DNA of 54,793 nucleotides from an uncultured Mycoplasmatota bacterium (GTDB taxonomy: Bacteria > Bacillota_I > Bacilli_A > RF39 > UBA660): contig CAMMJA010000001.1 of assembly GCA_946497145.1 (NCBI GenBank), positions 85,334-140,126 of the forward strand, in the 5' to 3' direction. The position numbers were made by a program, and so were the translations under genes. Positions 1,382 through 40,889 of this stretch are shown here, piece by piece; positions within the stretch are counted from its first letter, which is position 1; every line of letters begins with the position of its first letter. A model generated the notes under the pieces. That model saw only the letters and a list, made by a program, of their open reading frames with translations. It made no database searches and was not told the DNA's origin.

Positions 1382-2494
1382 ATGTTTGGAAATGATATAA
1401 ATCAAGCCATCTTAATTACTTTAGTTACTTTTCTCGTGTCTTGTTTTATTATGCCATTGATGAAATGGTTGGCTCATCATATTGGGGCTATGGATATACC
1501 GAGAAGCGATGAAAACAATCGACATATTCATAAAAAACCAACGCCAAAGTTAGGCGGGTTAGGGATCTTTCTCAGTTTTTTAGTTGGGTACATGCTCTTT
1601 GGTATCCAAAGTATTCAGATGAATTCTATTTTGATTGGTAGTTTTATTATCGTATTGACGGGTATTATCGACGATGTAAAATCTCTCAGGGCTTCTCAAA
1701 AATTAGTAGGTCAGTTGCTTGCTGCCTGTGTCATTGTTTTTTATGGTGGAATTTTGTTAAGTAATATTTCGTTTTTCGGTTTCTCTATCGATTTTGGTAT
1801 TTTGGCTTATCCTCTGACGATTTTTTTCTTAGTGGCGTGTGTCAATATTATCAATTTGGTAGATGGCCTCGATGGATTGAGTGGCGGAATTACGAGTATA
1901 TTTTATTTGACCATCGGGATCATCGGCTTTTTTCAAGGAAGAAGTGGAAGCATGGTTATGCTCCTTACCTTCATTATGTTGGGATCTACTCTTGGCTTTT
2001 TACTTCATAATTTTTATCCGGCTAAAATATTTGCCGGAGATTGTACCATGTTTATGGGGTTTATGATTGCAATTATAACGTTATTAGAATTTAAAGGAAC
2101 AGCATTAACTTCACTATTTGTACCACTTATGATATTAGGTATTCCTATTTTAGATACCTTATTTGCAATTATTCGAAGAATGTTAAAACGGCAACCTATT
2201 TTTTCGGCCGACAAGGAACATTTGCATCATCAATTGTTGGGAATGAACTTTTCTCAACGAACGACAGTACTAATTATATATGGTATTAATATTTTGTTTG
2301 CTTTATCCTCTATTTTTTACACGTTAAAAGATCCTTATCTTGGTATTATTATATATGTCATACTATTTATCTTAGTAGTATGGTTTATCTTACATACGAC
2401 GATTATATCCGAGAAGGGCTATCGCAAAGTTCAACAATTCGAATCGGCAGTGAAGCAAAAAATTCGAAAGCCAAAACAAGATAAAAGTAAATGA
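1382..2494 (+). CDS. tagO: Glycosyltransferase family 4 (WecA/TagO-type undecaprenyl-phosphate GlcNAc-1-P transferase)
   Basis: Multi-TM; KPTPKLGGLGIFLSF, NLVDGLDGLSGG, FAGDCTMFMGF, KEHLHHQLL motifs. Confidence 0.88.
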   Translation: MFGNDINQAILITLVTFLVSCFIMPLMKWLAHHIGAMDIPRSDENNRHIHKKPTPKLGGLGIFLSFLVGYMLFGIQSIQMNSILIGSFIIVLTGIIDDVKSLRASQKLVGQLLAACVIVFYGGILLSNISFFGFSIDFGILAYPLTIFFLVACVNIINLVDGLDGLSGGITSIFYLTIGIIGFFQGRSGSMVMLLTFIMLGSTLGFLLHNFYPAKIFAGDCTMFMGFMIAIITLLEFKGTALTSLFVPLMILGIPILDTLFAIIRRMLKRQPIFSADKEHLHHQLLGMNFSQRTTVLIIYGINILFALSSIFYTLKDPYLGIIIYVILFILVVWFILHTTIISEKGYRKVQQFESAVKQKIRKPKQDKSK

Positions 2495-2575
2495 GAGAAA
2501 CAAAAGCAATTTTGTTTCTTTTTAAAAATGATAAATAATTGGTAAATTTTGGAAAAAGGAAAGAGGGGAATAGAA

Positions 2576-3307
2576 ATGTTAAATTTTATTGTTGGGGAAG
2601 ATGATCCGAATTTTGAAAAGAGAATGAAACATCTAATTGATAACTTTATGATGAATTTTGATATAGAATATCAATATCATTCTTGTTCAGGATATGATAA
2701 AAAGTTCCAGAAGTTGGTTGAAGAAGATATTGGCTTTAAAGTATATTTTTTGGATATCAAGACGAAACATGGTTCTGGATTAGATGCCGCTCGTATGATA
2801 CGAGAAGAGTGTGATGATTGGATTTCCATCATTGTCATTGTTACTGCATTTAATGAATATCGCTATGAGGCCTTAGGAAATCGATTGTATTTATTAGACT
2901 TTATTAGCAAACTAGACGACTGTGACAAAAGAGTAACGGATGCTTTAAAGAAAGCCATGAAGAATTACGATAATAGATACAAGAGTTTAAGTTATGAATA
3001 TAATTACATTACTCGTAAAGTAGAATTTAGACATATCGTGTATATTGAAAAAGAACAAGATAGTAAAAGATGTATTATTAAAACAACATACGGGACACAG
3101 TTAATATCGAAAAGTTTAGTTGAAGTAGAAAAATTATTGGATAATAGATTTATGAAAACCCATCGCAGTATGATTGTAAATTTAGATTATATTAAAGAAT
3201 TTGACACAAAAGAAAATAAAATTACTTTTAAAAATAATGAAGTTACACATTTAGTAGCGAGGGATAAAAAGAAGGAGTTGACAAAGCGTGTTGGATTTAT
3301 TCAATAA
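2576..3307 (+). CDS. LytTR-family response regulator (AgrA-like)
   Basis: N-terminal receiver (VYFLDIKTKHGSGLDAARMIR) plus LytTR domain (YIEKEQDSKRCIIKTTYGTQLISKSLVEVEKLL...FMKTHRSMIVNLDYIKEFD); RBS GAGGGGAAT before ATG 2576, in frame with the ORF listed from 2549. Confidence 0.87.
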   Translation: MLNFIVGEDDPNFEKRMKHLIDNFMMNFDIEYQYHSCSGYDKKFQKLVEEDIGFKVYFLDIKTKHGSGLDAARMIREECDDWISIIVIVTAFNEYRYEALGNRLYLLDFISKLDDCDKRVTDALKKAMKNYDNRYKSLSYEYNYITRKVEFRHIVYIEKEQDSKRCIIKTTYGTQLISKSLVEVEKLLDNRFMKTHRSMIVNLDYIKEFDTKENKITFKNNEVTHLVARDKKKELTKRVGFIQ

Positions 3308-4577
3308 ATTTATTTGTGCAATGATAATTTCAATAGCAGGTTTTATTGTATTGAAAAATTTACTAAAAAGTGATGAGAAGTTGTGTAATTTCAAAAACAT
3401 ATGTCTTCTCATTGTTATAACTCTGCCGACTGTTCTATTTTACAGGTCAGAATATTATATTACCTTGTCGTTGTTAACGTATTTTTTTACAGCTTTTATT
3501 TATAAATTTATTTTCAAACTAAACTTAATTCAGTCATTTTTAATTACTGGAATTTTAATGATTATTATTTCATTGAGTGATATGATTACATCAATGATAT
3601 TTATTCATATTACTACGGTTGAACAAATGAGATCTTGTTGGTATATTATGTTATTTAGTAATTTAAGTGTTGCAGTCATTGCATTGCTAATTAGTAATAT
3701 TAAAACTGTACAAAATAAAACAGGAAGATTAATTGGCAGGATTAGTTCTATTAAATGGTTTAATAACATTGCTTTTTTAGTATTATTGATCGTAGTACTC
3801 AGCACCTTATTTTATAATGTATCTGAAACATTCTCATTGAGTACAGGATATATTATTAATATAGCTATTATGTTGATCTTTTTTGTGTTAACTTATATTT
3901 ATTTAAGGGAGCAATATAATTATGACAAGTTAAGCCACGAATATGATATGTTGTTTGATTATGTTGAACATTTCGAAGATTGGATAGAAACAGAACAGTT
4001 GAATCGTCATGAATTAAAAAATAGTTTAGGTGCGATAAGGAATTTAACAAAAAATAAAAAAGTAATAGAAAAAATAAATGATATATTACATGATAACATA
4101 AATATAGAAGATACTTGGATAGAGGAGTTAAAAGATGTTCCAAAAGGTATATTAAAAGGATTACTTTATTATAAAATGGCTATATCAAAAAAGCAAAGTA
4201 TTCAAGTAATATCAGAGGTTAGCTCTAATTCGACGAGTTATATAAAGAGATTGGGGAAAAAAGATTTAAAAGAATTAACGCAGCTAATAGGAATATTATT
4301 TGATAATGCTATAGAAGCATCAGAGTTATCAAAAAAGAAGATGGTGTGTGTTGAGATATATGTAGTTGATCGGCAATTAAATATTGTAATATCAAACACT
4401 TATAATGGTGAGATTAATTTAGAAGAGATTAATAAAAAAGGAAAAAGTAGTAAAGGAAAGGGAAGAGGAAATGGATTATATTTTGCGAAAAAAATAGTAG
4501 AAAAAAATACTAAATTTGAGATGGAGCAACAAATAATAAATGATTATTTTGTTGAAAAAATTATTATAAAACAATAA
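3288..4577 (+). CDS. GHKL sensor histidine kinase (AgrC-like), GTG start overlapping the response regulator
   Basis: N-terminal multi-TM sensor, RHELKNSLGAIR phospho-acceptor region, IGILFDNAIEAS N-box, GKGRGNGLYFAKKI G-box. Confidence 0.87.
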   Translation: MLDLFNKFICAMIISIAGFIVLKNLLKSDEKLCNFKNICLLIVITLPTVLFYRSEYYITLSLLTYFFTAFIYKFIFKLNLIQSFLITGILMIIISLSDMITSMIFIHITTVEQMRSCWYIMLFSNLSVAVIALLISNIKTVQNKTGRLIGRISSIKWFNNIAFLVLLIVVLSTLFYNVSETFSLSTGYIINIAIMLIFFVLTYIYLREQYNYDKLSHEYDMLFDYVEHFEDWIETEQLNRHELKNSLGAIRNLTKNKKVIEKINDILHDNINIEDTWIEELKDVPKGILKGLLYYKMAISKKQSIQVISEVSSNSTSYIKRLGKKDLKELTQLIGILFDNAIEASELSKKKMVCVEIYVVDRQLNIVISNTYNGEINLEEINKKGKSSKGKGRGNGLYFAKKIVEKNTKFEMEQQIINDYFVEKIIIKQ

Positions 4578-4604
4578 AAAACAAGTAGTATACTTGTTTT
4601 TTGC
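4572..4604. terminator. Bidirectional terminator between agrC-like (+) and agrD (-)
   Basis: A-run CAAGTA-GTA-TACTTG T-run; symmetrical A/T tracts suit both strands. Confidence 0.7.
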
Positions 4605-4607
4605 TGA

Positions 4608-4727
4608 TTAGTCCATGTTATTTAATGCTTTTGGCTCATCGCATAAGAACCAAACACACCCCATAGATGCAGCACTTGTCGCAAGCATTGCAACAGCAGC
4701 TAGAACGTAAGATAATCTTTTTTTCAT
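4608..4727 (-). CDS. agrD: AgrD-like cyclic lactone/thiolactone autoinducer peptide precursor, 39 aa
   Basis: Reverse-strand translation MKKRLSYVLAAVAMLATSAASMGCVWFLCDEPKALNNMD*; amphipathic/hydrophobic leader, C-V-W-F-L candidate ring, acidic DEPK C-terminal tail; lies directly downstream of agrB on the same strand with a GGAGG-like RBS (revcomp of 'ggcctccttt'). Confidence 0.87.
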   Translation of the reverse strand: MKKRLSYVLAAVAMLATSAASMGCVWFLCDEPKALNNMD

Positions 4728-4782
4728 TTGTTTCGGCCTCCTTTACTACTTAGATATATATTTAAATACTTTCGTATTTAAA

Positions 4783-5385
4783 TCAGGAAGAGATACACTT
4801 CTTGTAATTGTTGAATGGTTGATGAAATATTTTATAAGTAATAGGACAAATCATAATTCCTTCGATTAAGAATGCTGCTAAAATAAGTTGAGAAATTACT
4901 GTATTTTTAATAGTAAAAATAGCAATGGTATAGATAATAGCAAAACTGATAGATGCAAATTTACGAATTTTACGTTTTCTTGTATTGGTAAGTGGTCTTT
5001 TTGGCGTATCTGCTGGTGCCCAAAGAGCAAAGGCGATAAGACATAGGCCAGTTAGAAATACTTTAATTGGAAAAGTTAAAGTCATATGTAACATGATATA
5101 TGGTAATGCTAAAAATAATGTTGCAGAAAATAATAGACAAGTAATGCTTCGATCAGCATGAAATCCAAAGGCAGGATATCGAATAATGTTAAAGAAAAGT
5201 AATACAATAATCATTTCTTTGAATATTCCTAGGATCAGAGACAATATAGAAATGACAATTAATTTTGTAATAGTTAAGTATAACCCTTCTAAACCATATT
5301 GTAGCTGTTCTATTTGTTCTTCACTGTAGTTAGGATTGTATTTTGTAATCCATTTTATAGAGTAATTTAGGAAAGCTTGCTTCAT
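4783..5385 (-). CDS. agrB: AgrB-family accessory gene regulator peptidase/exporter
   Basis: Multi-TM protein with NIIRYPAFGFHADRSITC catalytic His region and CLLFS; typical ~200 aa AgrB. Confidence 0.9.
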   Translation of the reverse strand: MKQAFLNYSIKWITKYNPNYSEEQIEQLQYGLEGLYLTITKLIVISILSLILGIFKEMIIVLLFFNIIRYPAFGFHADRSITCLLFSATLFLALPYIMLHMTLTFPIKVFLTGLCLIAFALWAPADTPKRPLTNTRKRKIRKFASISFAIIYTIAIFTIKNTVISQLILAAFLIEGIMICPITYKIFHQPFNNYKKCISS

Positions 5386-5665
5386 TTACCACACCTCGCT
5401 AACTTAACCTGAAGATAGTTTAGCATTAAAAAATACGAGCAAGAACGAAAAGTTCTAAAATGCTATTTTTGGTAAAATTTATTTAAAAAAGAATTTTAAA
5501 AAACGAAAATATACCAAAATATCCCTTGAAATTACATTTTAGAGAATTACTTACAGCAACAAATGAAATGTGTTAGAATAAAAATGCGCATTAAAAAGCA
5601 GTGTCTACACTTAAGTGAAAAGATTGAAAGAAGTGAGAAATTTGAAGAAAAGAGGAGCGCAAAGT

Positions 5666-5884
5666 ATGATCGGTAAAGTAAAATGGTTTAACAATGAAAA
5701 AGGGTATGGGTTTATTGAATATAAAGAAGATGAGGATATATTTGTTCACTATTCAGCAATTAAGCAAGAAGGATATAAGACAATATCGGAAGGACAATAT
5801 GTATCATTTGATTTATTAGAAACAGCCAAAGGATACCAAGCAACAAATGTCGTTGTTGTACCAGAGCCAGTCACCACAAAATAG
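5666..5884 (+). CDS. csp: Cold-shock domain protein
   Basis: [42 protein letters not shown] before ATG 5666, in frame with the ORF listed from 5615. Confidence 0.92.
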
Positions 5885-5897
5885 GTGGCTTTTTTCT
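5867..5897 (+). terminator. Rho-independent terminator
   Basis: AGCCAGTCACC...GGTGGCT + T-tract. Confidence 0.6.
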
Positions 5898-5934
5898 TAG
5901 TGTTATGGTATAATGAAATTGGGAGGATGATAGT

Positions 5935-6462
5935 ATGAATTTGCTAATTAGAGGAGACAAAGTAAAAGTAACAGAAGCCATGAATGACTATGTGGAAGAG
6001 AAGTTACAAAAACTCAATAAGTATATTGAGGATAGCGACAATGTACGTGCAACTGTGGTAGTAAAAATTAAAGATCATCGTCAAAAAGTGGAAGTGACGA
6101 TTCCGCTAAAAACCTTTATTTTACGTGCAGAAGAAGAATGTGATGACTTCTATGCTGCAGTAGATACCATCGTAGATAAGTTAGAAAGACAGATACGTAA
6201 GAATAAAACACGTTTGGAAAATAGAACGAACAAAAGTAATAAAGATTTTATTTTTCAAGAGATGGAAGAATTTCAAGAAACAACCGATACTGTTGTAAAA
6301 AGAAAGAAAATAGAAGTAAAGCCAATGGACGAAGAAGAAGCCATGCTACAACTTGAACTATTAGGACATCAATTTTATCTTTATAAGGATGCTACTACAA
6401 ATCAACCGACAGTTATTTATAAAAGAAAAGATGGTGGCTACGGTATTATCGAGTCAGAATAA
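5935..6462 (+). CDS. hpf: Ribosome hibernation promoting factor, long form
   Basis: N-terminal S30AE domain plus C-terminal KPMDEEEAMLQLELLGHQFYLYKDATTNQPTVIYKRKDGGYGIIE. Confidence 0.95.
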   Translation: MNLLIRGDKVKVTEAMNDYVEEKLQKLNKYIEDSDNVRATVVVKIKDHRQKVEVTIPLKTFILRAEEECDDFYAAVDTIVDKLERQIRKNKTRLENRTNKSNKDFIFQEMEEFQETTDTVVKRKKIEVKPMDEEEAMLQLELLGHQFYLYKDATTNQPTVIYKRKDGGYGIIESE

Positions 6463-39882: not shown

Positions 39883-39891
39883 TTTGTCGAA
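39883..39891 (+). promoter_or_regulatory. Spo0A-binding 0A box
   Basis: TTTGTCGAA exact consensus, upstream of spo0A. Confidence 0.6.
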
Positions 39892-40020
39892 AAAACAAAA
39901 AAATTGTCTTTTTGTTAACTTTTTCTCGAGTTAAAAGATATTCTAAATAACATTGGAAAACTATGTTTTCACTGCGTAAAAACGAATTGCCAAGATAATT
40001 TTAATCGTATACTTTACGAT

Positions 40021-40029
40021 TTCGACAAA
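40021..40029 (-). promoter_or_regulatory. Spo0A-binding 0A box (reverse orientation)
   Basis: TTCGACAAA = reverse complement of TTTGTCGAA, 81 bp upstream of spo0A ATG. Confidence 0.6.
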
Positions 40030-40109: not shown

Positions 40110-40889
40110 ATGAAAACGATAAGAGTACTTATGATAGACGACAATGTCGAACTAGTAAGCATGATTAAGGAGTATTTTAGTGATCACGCTAATATTGAAG
40201 TAACACTTGAGGCAAATGATGGAGAAGAAGGATTAAAACTAATTGAAAATAATCAAAAAGATTACGACGTAGTTTTATTAGATCTCATCATGCCAAAGAA
40301 AGATGGAGTAACAGTTCTAGAAGAATTGAAAGGAAAAGACATCGATAAGAAGATTATTGTATTAACTTCTTATAATGCCCAAGACATGATTAGAAAAGTA
40401 TCAGAACTTGGCATTGACTATTTTATTTTAAAACCATTTGAGTTATCTGATTTAGAAAAGAGAATTCTAGAATGTGCAAGCGATACCAAGTATACCAACA
40501 AGGCAATTGATTTGTACCATAACAATTTGCAAATTTCAATTACTAAGATTTTACATGAATTAGGAGTTCCATCACATATCAAGGGTTATCAATATATAAG
40601 AGAAGGAATTACGGTTCTATACGAAAGACCTGATGTCATCGGTGGAATAACCAAAGAGTTGTATCCTGATATCGCAAGCAAGTTTGATACGACAGTATCC
40701 CGTGTAGAACGCGCCATTAGACATGCGATTGAAGTAAGTTGGAATCGTGGTAATTGGCAGTTGATGGAAGATATCTTCGGACATAGTGTCGATATCGACA
40801 AAGCCAAACCAACCAATTCAGAATTTATTGTAACAGTCGCAGACAAATTACGGCTAGAGTTTCATAAAACTTCAAATGCCAAGCAGTAG
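40110..40889 (+). CDS. spo0A: Sporulation transcription factor Spo0A
   Basis: Receiver domain plus C-terminal DNA-binding helix [19 protein letters not shown]. Confidence 0.96.

Follow-up and report, generated by a model that had tools for sequence, protein, structure and literature searches.

The 39-amino acid open reading frame (ORF) located downstream of agrB in the window, that is, the whole 54,793-nucleotide stretch of DNA analysed here, is a real agrD of the known agr type, with the predicted ring of its product corrected to CVWFLC. Taken as a whole, it is highly probable that the locus encodes an agr-type quorum-sensing precursor, from which AgrB would make the thiolactone CVWFLC, which would in turn be sensed by an AgrC-like kinase signalling to a LytTR regulator. 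This reading starts from what is observed directly, namely the ORF, its conservation, the gene order, the spacing of its core and the residues of AgrB. The features of the locus are listed in Table 1.

Table 1. Features of the agr locus and its flanks, with positions counted along the window
Feature	Position	Strand	Basis
agrA-like LytTR response regulator	2576..3307	+	Pfam LytTR e-value 3.1e-16; ATG at 2576 chosen from sequence
agrC-like sensor histidine kinase, GHKL domain	3288..4577	+	Pfam HATPase_c_5 e-value 7.8e-12
Bidirectional terminator-like hairpin between agrD and agrC	4575..4603	both	z -3.7 and -5.2; T runs on either side
agrD, 39-aa autoinducer precursor	4608..4727	-	Translation; TIGR04223 score just under cut-off; counterparts 3′ of agrB in relatives
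Acidic tail DEPKALNNMD, predicted to be removed by AgrB	4611..4640	-	Family alignment
Predicted ring, residues 24-29, CVWFLC	4641..4658	-	C-x5-[DE]E spacing; analogy with S. aureus AgrD
Leader (residues 1-23), hydrophobic with a basic start, ending S-M-G before the ring Cys	4659..4727	-	Family alignment
Shine-Dalgarno sequence AAAGGAGG	4737..4744	-	9 nt 5′ of the agrD ATG; read from sequence
agrB, membrane peptidase/cyclase, 200 aa	4783..5385	-	Pfam AgrB e-value 5.8e-33
Divergent cold-shock-like gene, then ribosome hibernation factor gene	5666..6462	+	ORFs; names by sequence resemblance

Identification of agrD

The ORF begins with an ATG codon, is preceded by a strong Shine-Dalgarno sequence and translates exactly to MKKRLSYVLAAVAMLATSAASMGCVWFLCDEPKALNNMD, as the original prediction had it. 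It starts 55 nt after the agrB stop codon on the same strand, an arrangement which is repeated in the relatives and bears out the proposed link to agrB. Among the 304 window ORFs of 30-60 amino acids, the motif [CST]-x5-[DE]EP is unique to agrD, and a same-genus relative encodes a peptide with the same 39-amino acid layout, with pS exceeding pN between the two. The ORF is therefore confirmed to be real, rather than a chance ORF.

Comparison of the peptide against NCBIfam identified TIGR04223 (quorum_AgrD) as its sole match up to an e-value of 10 (Bitscore: 17.8; e-value: 0.0028; curated cut-off: 19), while no match to the peptide was found in Pfam. The same model matches 30 of the 34 aligned AgrD relatives that were scanned (e-values up to 1; best e-value: 1.4e-8). 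Since these relatives carry a similar small ORF 3′ of agrB, the window peptide is, as judged from them, AgrD, which settles the identity first proposed for it, its own score falling just under the cut-off.

The AgrD family in related genomes

The family set was compiled by reading the DNA 3′ of agrB in AgrB loci 1 to 115 from relatives, nearly all of which come from one family of uncultured Bacilli with small genomes. A small ORF resembling agrD follows agrB in these loci, from which 101 distinct AgrD-like ORFs were obtained; in four loci (L096, L097, L103 and L115) the ORF was passed over by the filter and is visible by eye. Several further loci end too soon after agrB to judge the presence of agrD, and where the sequence extends far enough, the small ORF is almost always present. 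AgrB was detected in 244 of the 386 genomes sampled from the order, while the genome from which the window derives (0.98 Mb in 36 contigs; assembly ~90% complete) contains one AgrB.

The division of the peptide into a leader, a core and an acidic Pro-containing tail, already recognized in the original prediction, is kept across the family alignment, with leader and tail conserved and the core variable. When the window is compared with the same-genus relative, pS and pN are 0.38 and 0.10 for the agrD leader and tail, and 0.98 and 0.46 for the ring, values which are rough given the short stretches compared, with the other eight pairs concurring for leader and tail. On these sequence comparisons, purifying selection acts on the leader and tail, in contrast with a hypervariable ring.

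Ring size and the second Cys

The arrangement C-x5-[DE]-E is found in 70 of the 101 distinct precursors, including the window peptide, and the five intervening residues are variable and mostly hydrophobic. In all 70 of these, the +6 position relative to the Cys is D or E and the +7 position is E, while the +8 position is P in 62/70. Other Cys spacings are seven residues (four precursors) and five (two precursors, L065 and L068), so that the AgrB of this family may accept rings of different sizes.

In Staphylococcus aureus, AgrB cuts AgrD between M32 and D33 and requires both D33 and E34 to do so; in a model, K139 and R70 of AgrB lie against these two acidic residues (PMC10196373). The autoinducing peptide (AIP) of Listeria has been confirmed by mass spectrometry as the five-residue CFMFV (PMC4916163), and its AgrD precursor reads A-CFMFV followed directly by YEP, a spacing of five. 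A rule by which the ring stops just before x-E-P is thus correct for Listeria, and yields CVWFLC when applied to the window peptide. As the acidic pair that signals the AgrB cut is found six residues after the ring Cys, versus five in Listeria, the product is, by this analogy, most likely the six-residue thiolactone CVWFLC rather than the five-residue CVWFL. Six-residue AIPs have been established or predicted in Clostridium acetobutylicum and its relatives (PMC12312760, PMC10301443). Given the family spacing and the Listeria calibration, the ring CVWFL of the original prediction is probably one residue short, and the predicted product of the window locus is here corrected from CVWFL to CVWFLC.

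We consider it unlikely that AgrB processes this AgrD into the ring CVWFL by a cut placed one residue closer to the N-terminus, in which case Cys29 would be lost with the tail. Five is the commonest ring size known (PMC12312760), and the L065 and L068 precursors can be read as containing five-residue rings (CMFAF and CTFIF, respectively), but both have a Thr at the sixth position. Furthermore, such a cut would not directly precede the acidic pair, the Cys stands exactly six residues ahead of [DE]E in the 70 precursors noted above, and the residue preceding [DE]E is hydrophobic and variable like the ring, unlike the fixed tail.

The second Cys (Cys29) had been regarded as unusual and as leaving the ring boundary or a disulfide open, while the alignment makes it a better prediction that it forms the final residue of the CVWFLC ring and does not point to a disulfide. 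This variable last ring position is occupied by F, I, L, V, W, A, M, Y or C in the relatives, with Cys in two of the 70 six-spaced precursors, the window peptide and that of L017 (CVMFLC-DEP). These two peptides, with two Cys four residues apart, would also suit a linear or lasso-like peptide held by a Cys24-Cys29 disulfide in place of a thiolactone. As the last-position Cys is confined to these two and scattered among hydrophobic residues, the pair is not conserved, and this structure is very improbable.

AgrB, AgrC and AgrA and the predicted maturation pathway

H76 and C83 of AgrB are kept in 101/101 relatives and R69 in 100/101, and the three residues, which correspond to R70, H77 and C84 of S. 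aureus, are invariant in comparison with the AgrB proteins of Listeria, Clostridium and Enterococcus. Homology and these conserved residues settle the assignment of AgrB, for which no solved structure of a relative was found by sequence. The window kinase shows a full-length match to the AgrC model (e-value: 1.1e-15) and the LytTR regulator matches the AgrA model NF046049 (e-value: 5.2e-16), both well below cut-off. A GHKL sensor kinase and a LytTR regulator are thus present as a pair, as expected of an AgrCA two-component system.

The steps of maturation and signalling, from cutting, ring closure and removal of the leader to sensing and regulation, are modelled on the homologous systems. AgrB, through C83, H76 and R69, would bind the acidic tail of AgrD, cut between Cys29 and Asp30, ahead of the D30-E31 pair, and pass the Cys29 carboxyl to the Cys24 thiol, giving the thiolactone C-V-W-F-L-C. 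Signal peptidase I would probably take off the leader after S-M-G, immediately before the ring Cys, to leave a tail-less ring. This ring would be sensed by the AgrC-like kinase, with phosphate transferred to the LytTR regulator encoded in the same converging operon.

Among the 70 Cys-led six-spaced precursors, 67 have A or G at -1 to the ring Cys and 65 have S or T at -3, with free choice between, which looks like a signal-peptidase-I-like site directly before the ring and would leave the AIP without a tail. Signal peptidase I genes (PF10502) are present in the window genome, while a PF02517 protein, the fold family of which MroQ is presumably a member, was not detected in this ~90% complete assembly. 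The basic, hydrophobic N-terminus with its G-C signal has a layout similar to that of a lipoprotein signal, and two family members weakly match a lipoprotein model (best e-value: 0.0028). It is nevertheless highly doubtful that the ORF encodes a small lipoprotein, lipidated at Cys24 and only incidentally close to agrB, as the -3 position harbors S or T where a lipobox would have L, V or I, Thr or Ser replaces the Cys in many relatives with core and tail unchanged, and both the [DE]EP tail and the association with agrB are constant.

Threonine- and serine-led precursors

A Thr lies six residues before [DEN]E in 23 of the 101 distinct precursors and in six more, making at least 29, and two further Thr-led precursors (L097 and L115) were recognized by eye. 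The Thr-led precursors (loci L046-L074, L112, L124-L141 and L144) have a core of the form T-x-[W]-[FL]-x-[WYF], with leader and core lacking Cys, and AgrB keeps C83 at all Thr-led loci. On the AgrB tree, the Thr label has to change no fewer than four times on well-supported branches, and reversals to Cys are observed inside the Thr branch (CVWFIW in L114 and L142; CAWFFY in L143). Ser is found at the ring-closing position in L090, L109 (read as SYFWLS-EEP) and L096, which are scattered among Cys-led relatives.

Because Cys and Thr are exchanged at one position with the spacing, core and tail kept, we suggest, with some reservation, that in one genus-level branch and at least twice outside it Thr replaces the ring Cys and AgrB closes a threonine lactone. 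To our knowledge, known oxygen-closed AIPs use Ser. No report of a threonine AIP was found by text searches of the open-access literature. Four precursors (L065, L068, L152 and L153) share the core T-C-x-F-x-F-DEP, with Thr sixth and Cys fifth before the acidic pair, and their ring could be either a lactone of six residues or a thiolactone of five.

Locus organization and regulation

The agrBD and agrAC genes converge on the terminator-like hairpin between agrD and agrC, which was passed over by a consensus terminator scan requiring at least three G-C pairs. The position and structure of this hairpin fit a terminator common to agrBD and agrAC. The converging arrangement is likewise present in related loci with enough flank, agrC lying on the opposite strand 135-500 nt past agrB in most of the loci reaching that far. 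In relatives, the gene that normally faces agrB is that of the ribosome hibernation factor, this divergent hpf-like ORF beginning ~470-680 nt upstream of agrB in most related loci. Given these constant neighbours and the lack of a relative in viral_contigs, the agr locus looks ancestral to the genomes of this small-genome uncultured Bacilli family, vertically inherited rather than mobile. A phage origin was rejected, no relative having been found in viral_contigs; one unannotated phage record gave a weak match.

Neither an RNAIII-like nor another known RNA was identified by Rfam comparison of positions 2300-6000, and a pattern search of the window revealed no clear LytTR direct-repeat operator upstream of agrB. 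An excess of period-21 direct repeats does occur upstream of agrB in some relatives, and not in the window (8 loci vs. 1.0 in shuffles). In the nearest relatives a conserved block, CTAAAATG...ATTT, is located ~150 nt before agrB (window positions 5400-5560).

The Spo0A-box-like motif TTCGACA is strongly over-represented within 250 nt upstream of agrB (52 occurrences vs. 1.6 in shuffles). It is present in about half of the related loci (e.g., L008, L012 and L037), sometimes as 10-bp direct repeats, and absent at the window agrB, and could serve either agrB or the divergent cold-shock gene. The Spo0A C-terminal domain was found in 9/10 genomes tested. In the window, a 259-amino acid Spo0A-like regulator of this small-genome gut Bacilli lineage is encoded at 40110-40889 on the plus strand (Spo0A_C; e-value: 6.1e-41); TTCGACA occurs twice immediately ahead of the gene, at 39885-40027, and once inside its start region.

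Comparison with known agr systems

The AIP of C. acetobutylicum, [CVLVTL], has a six-residue ring, with agrBD and agrCA organized as separate operons (PMC12312760), and its synthetic R6T0 version, which lacks a tail, is active (PMC12312760, PMC10301443). As in the window, its six-residue thiolactone was predicted from a Cys-led core and its operons are separate (PMC12312760, PMC10301443), and the spacing of six from ring Cys to tail in the window peptide, as set by the predicted cut, matches this AIP subgroup. C. acetobutylicum belongs, however, to a different class of Firmicutes, and in the window the operons run towards each other, agrA preceding agrC. The plasmid AgrD peptides of C. tagluense and C. 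estertheticum (L119, L120 and L121) share with the window locus the spacing of six (CIGYGL, CIAYAL and CLGIAL, followed by EEP), S-T-Q-A ahead of the Cys and a kinase gene of the GHKL type that converges on agrD, but differ in being plasmid-borne, in an AgrB that is 30-37% identical and in an agrD overlapping agrB.

Listeria monocytogenes resembles the window in the R/H/C residues of AgrB, the acidic -E-P start of the tail and the tail-less ring (PMC4916163), while differing in its five-residue ring and in an agrBDCA cluster oriented entirely in one direction. Similarly, S. aureus AIP-I (YST[CDFIM]) shares the cut before D-E and AgrB R70/H77/C84 (PMC10196373), whereas it has a five-residue ring with an N-terminal tail and a leader removed by MroQ. 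AgrB genes are also borne on megaplasmids of Enterococcus raffinosus (H11-H15), several of them in records without annotation.

An uncultured gut Bacilli family with genomes of ~1 Mb has thus retained a full locus for peptide quorum sensing at a constant position in the chromosome. The six-residue signals predicted for the family, around a hundred in number and all different, are open to synthesis and testing, and its Thr-led members would represent a natural test of AgrB ring closure by an oxygen versus a sulfur nucleophile.
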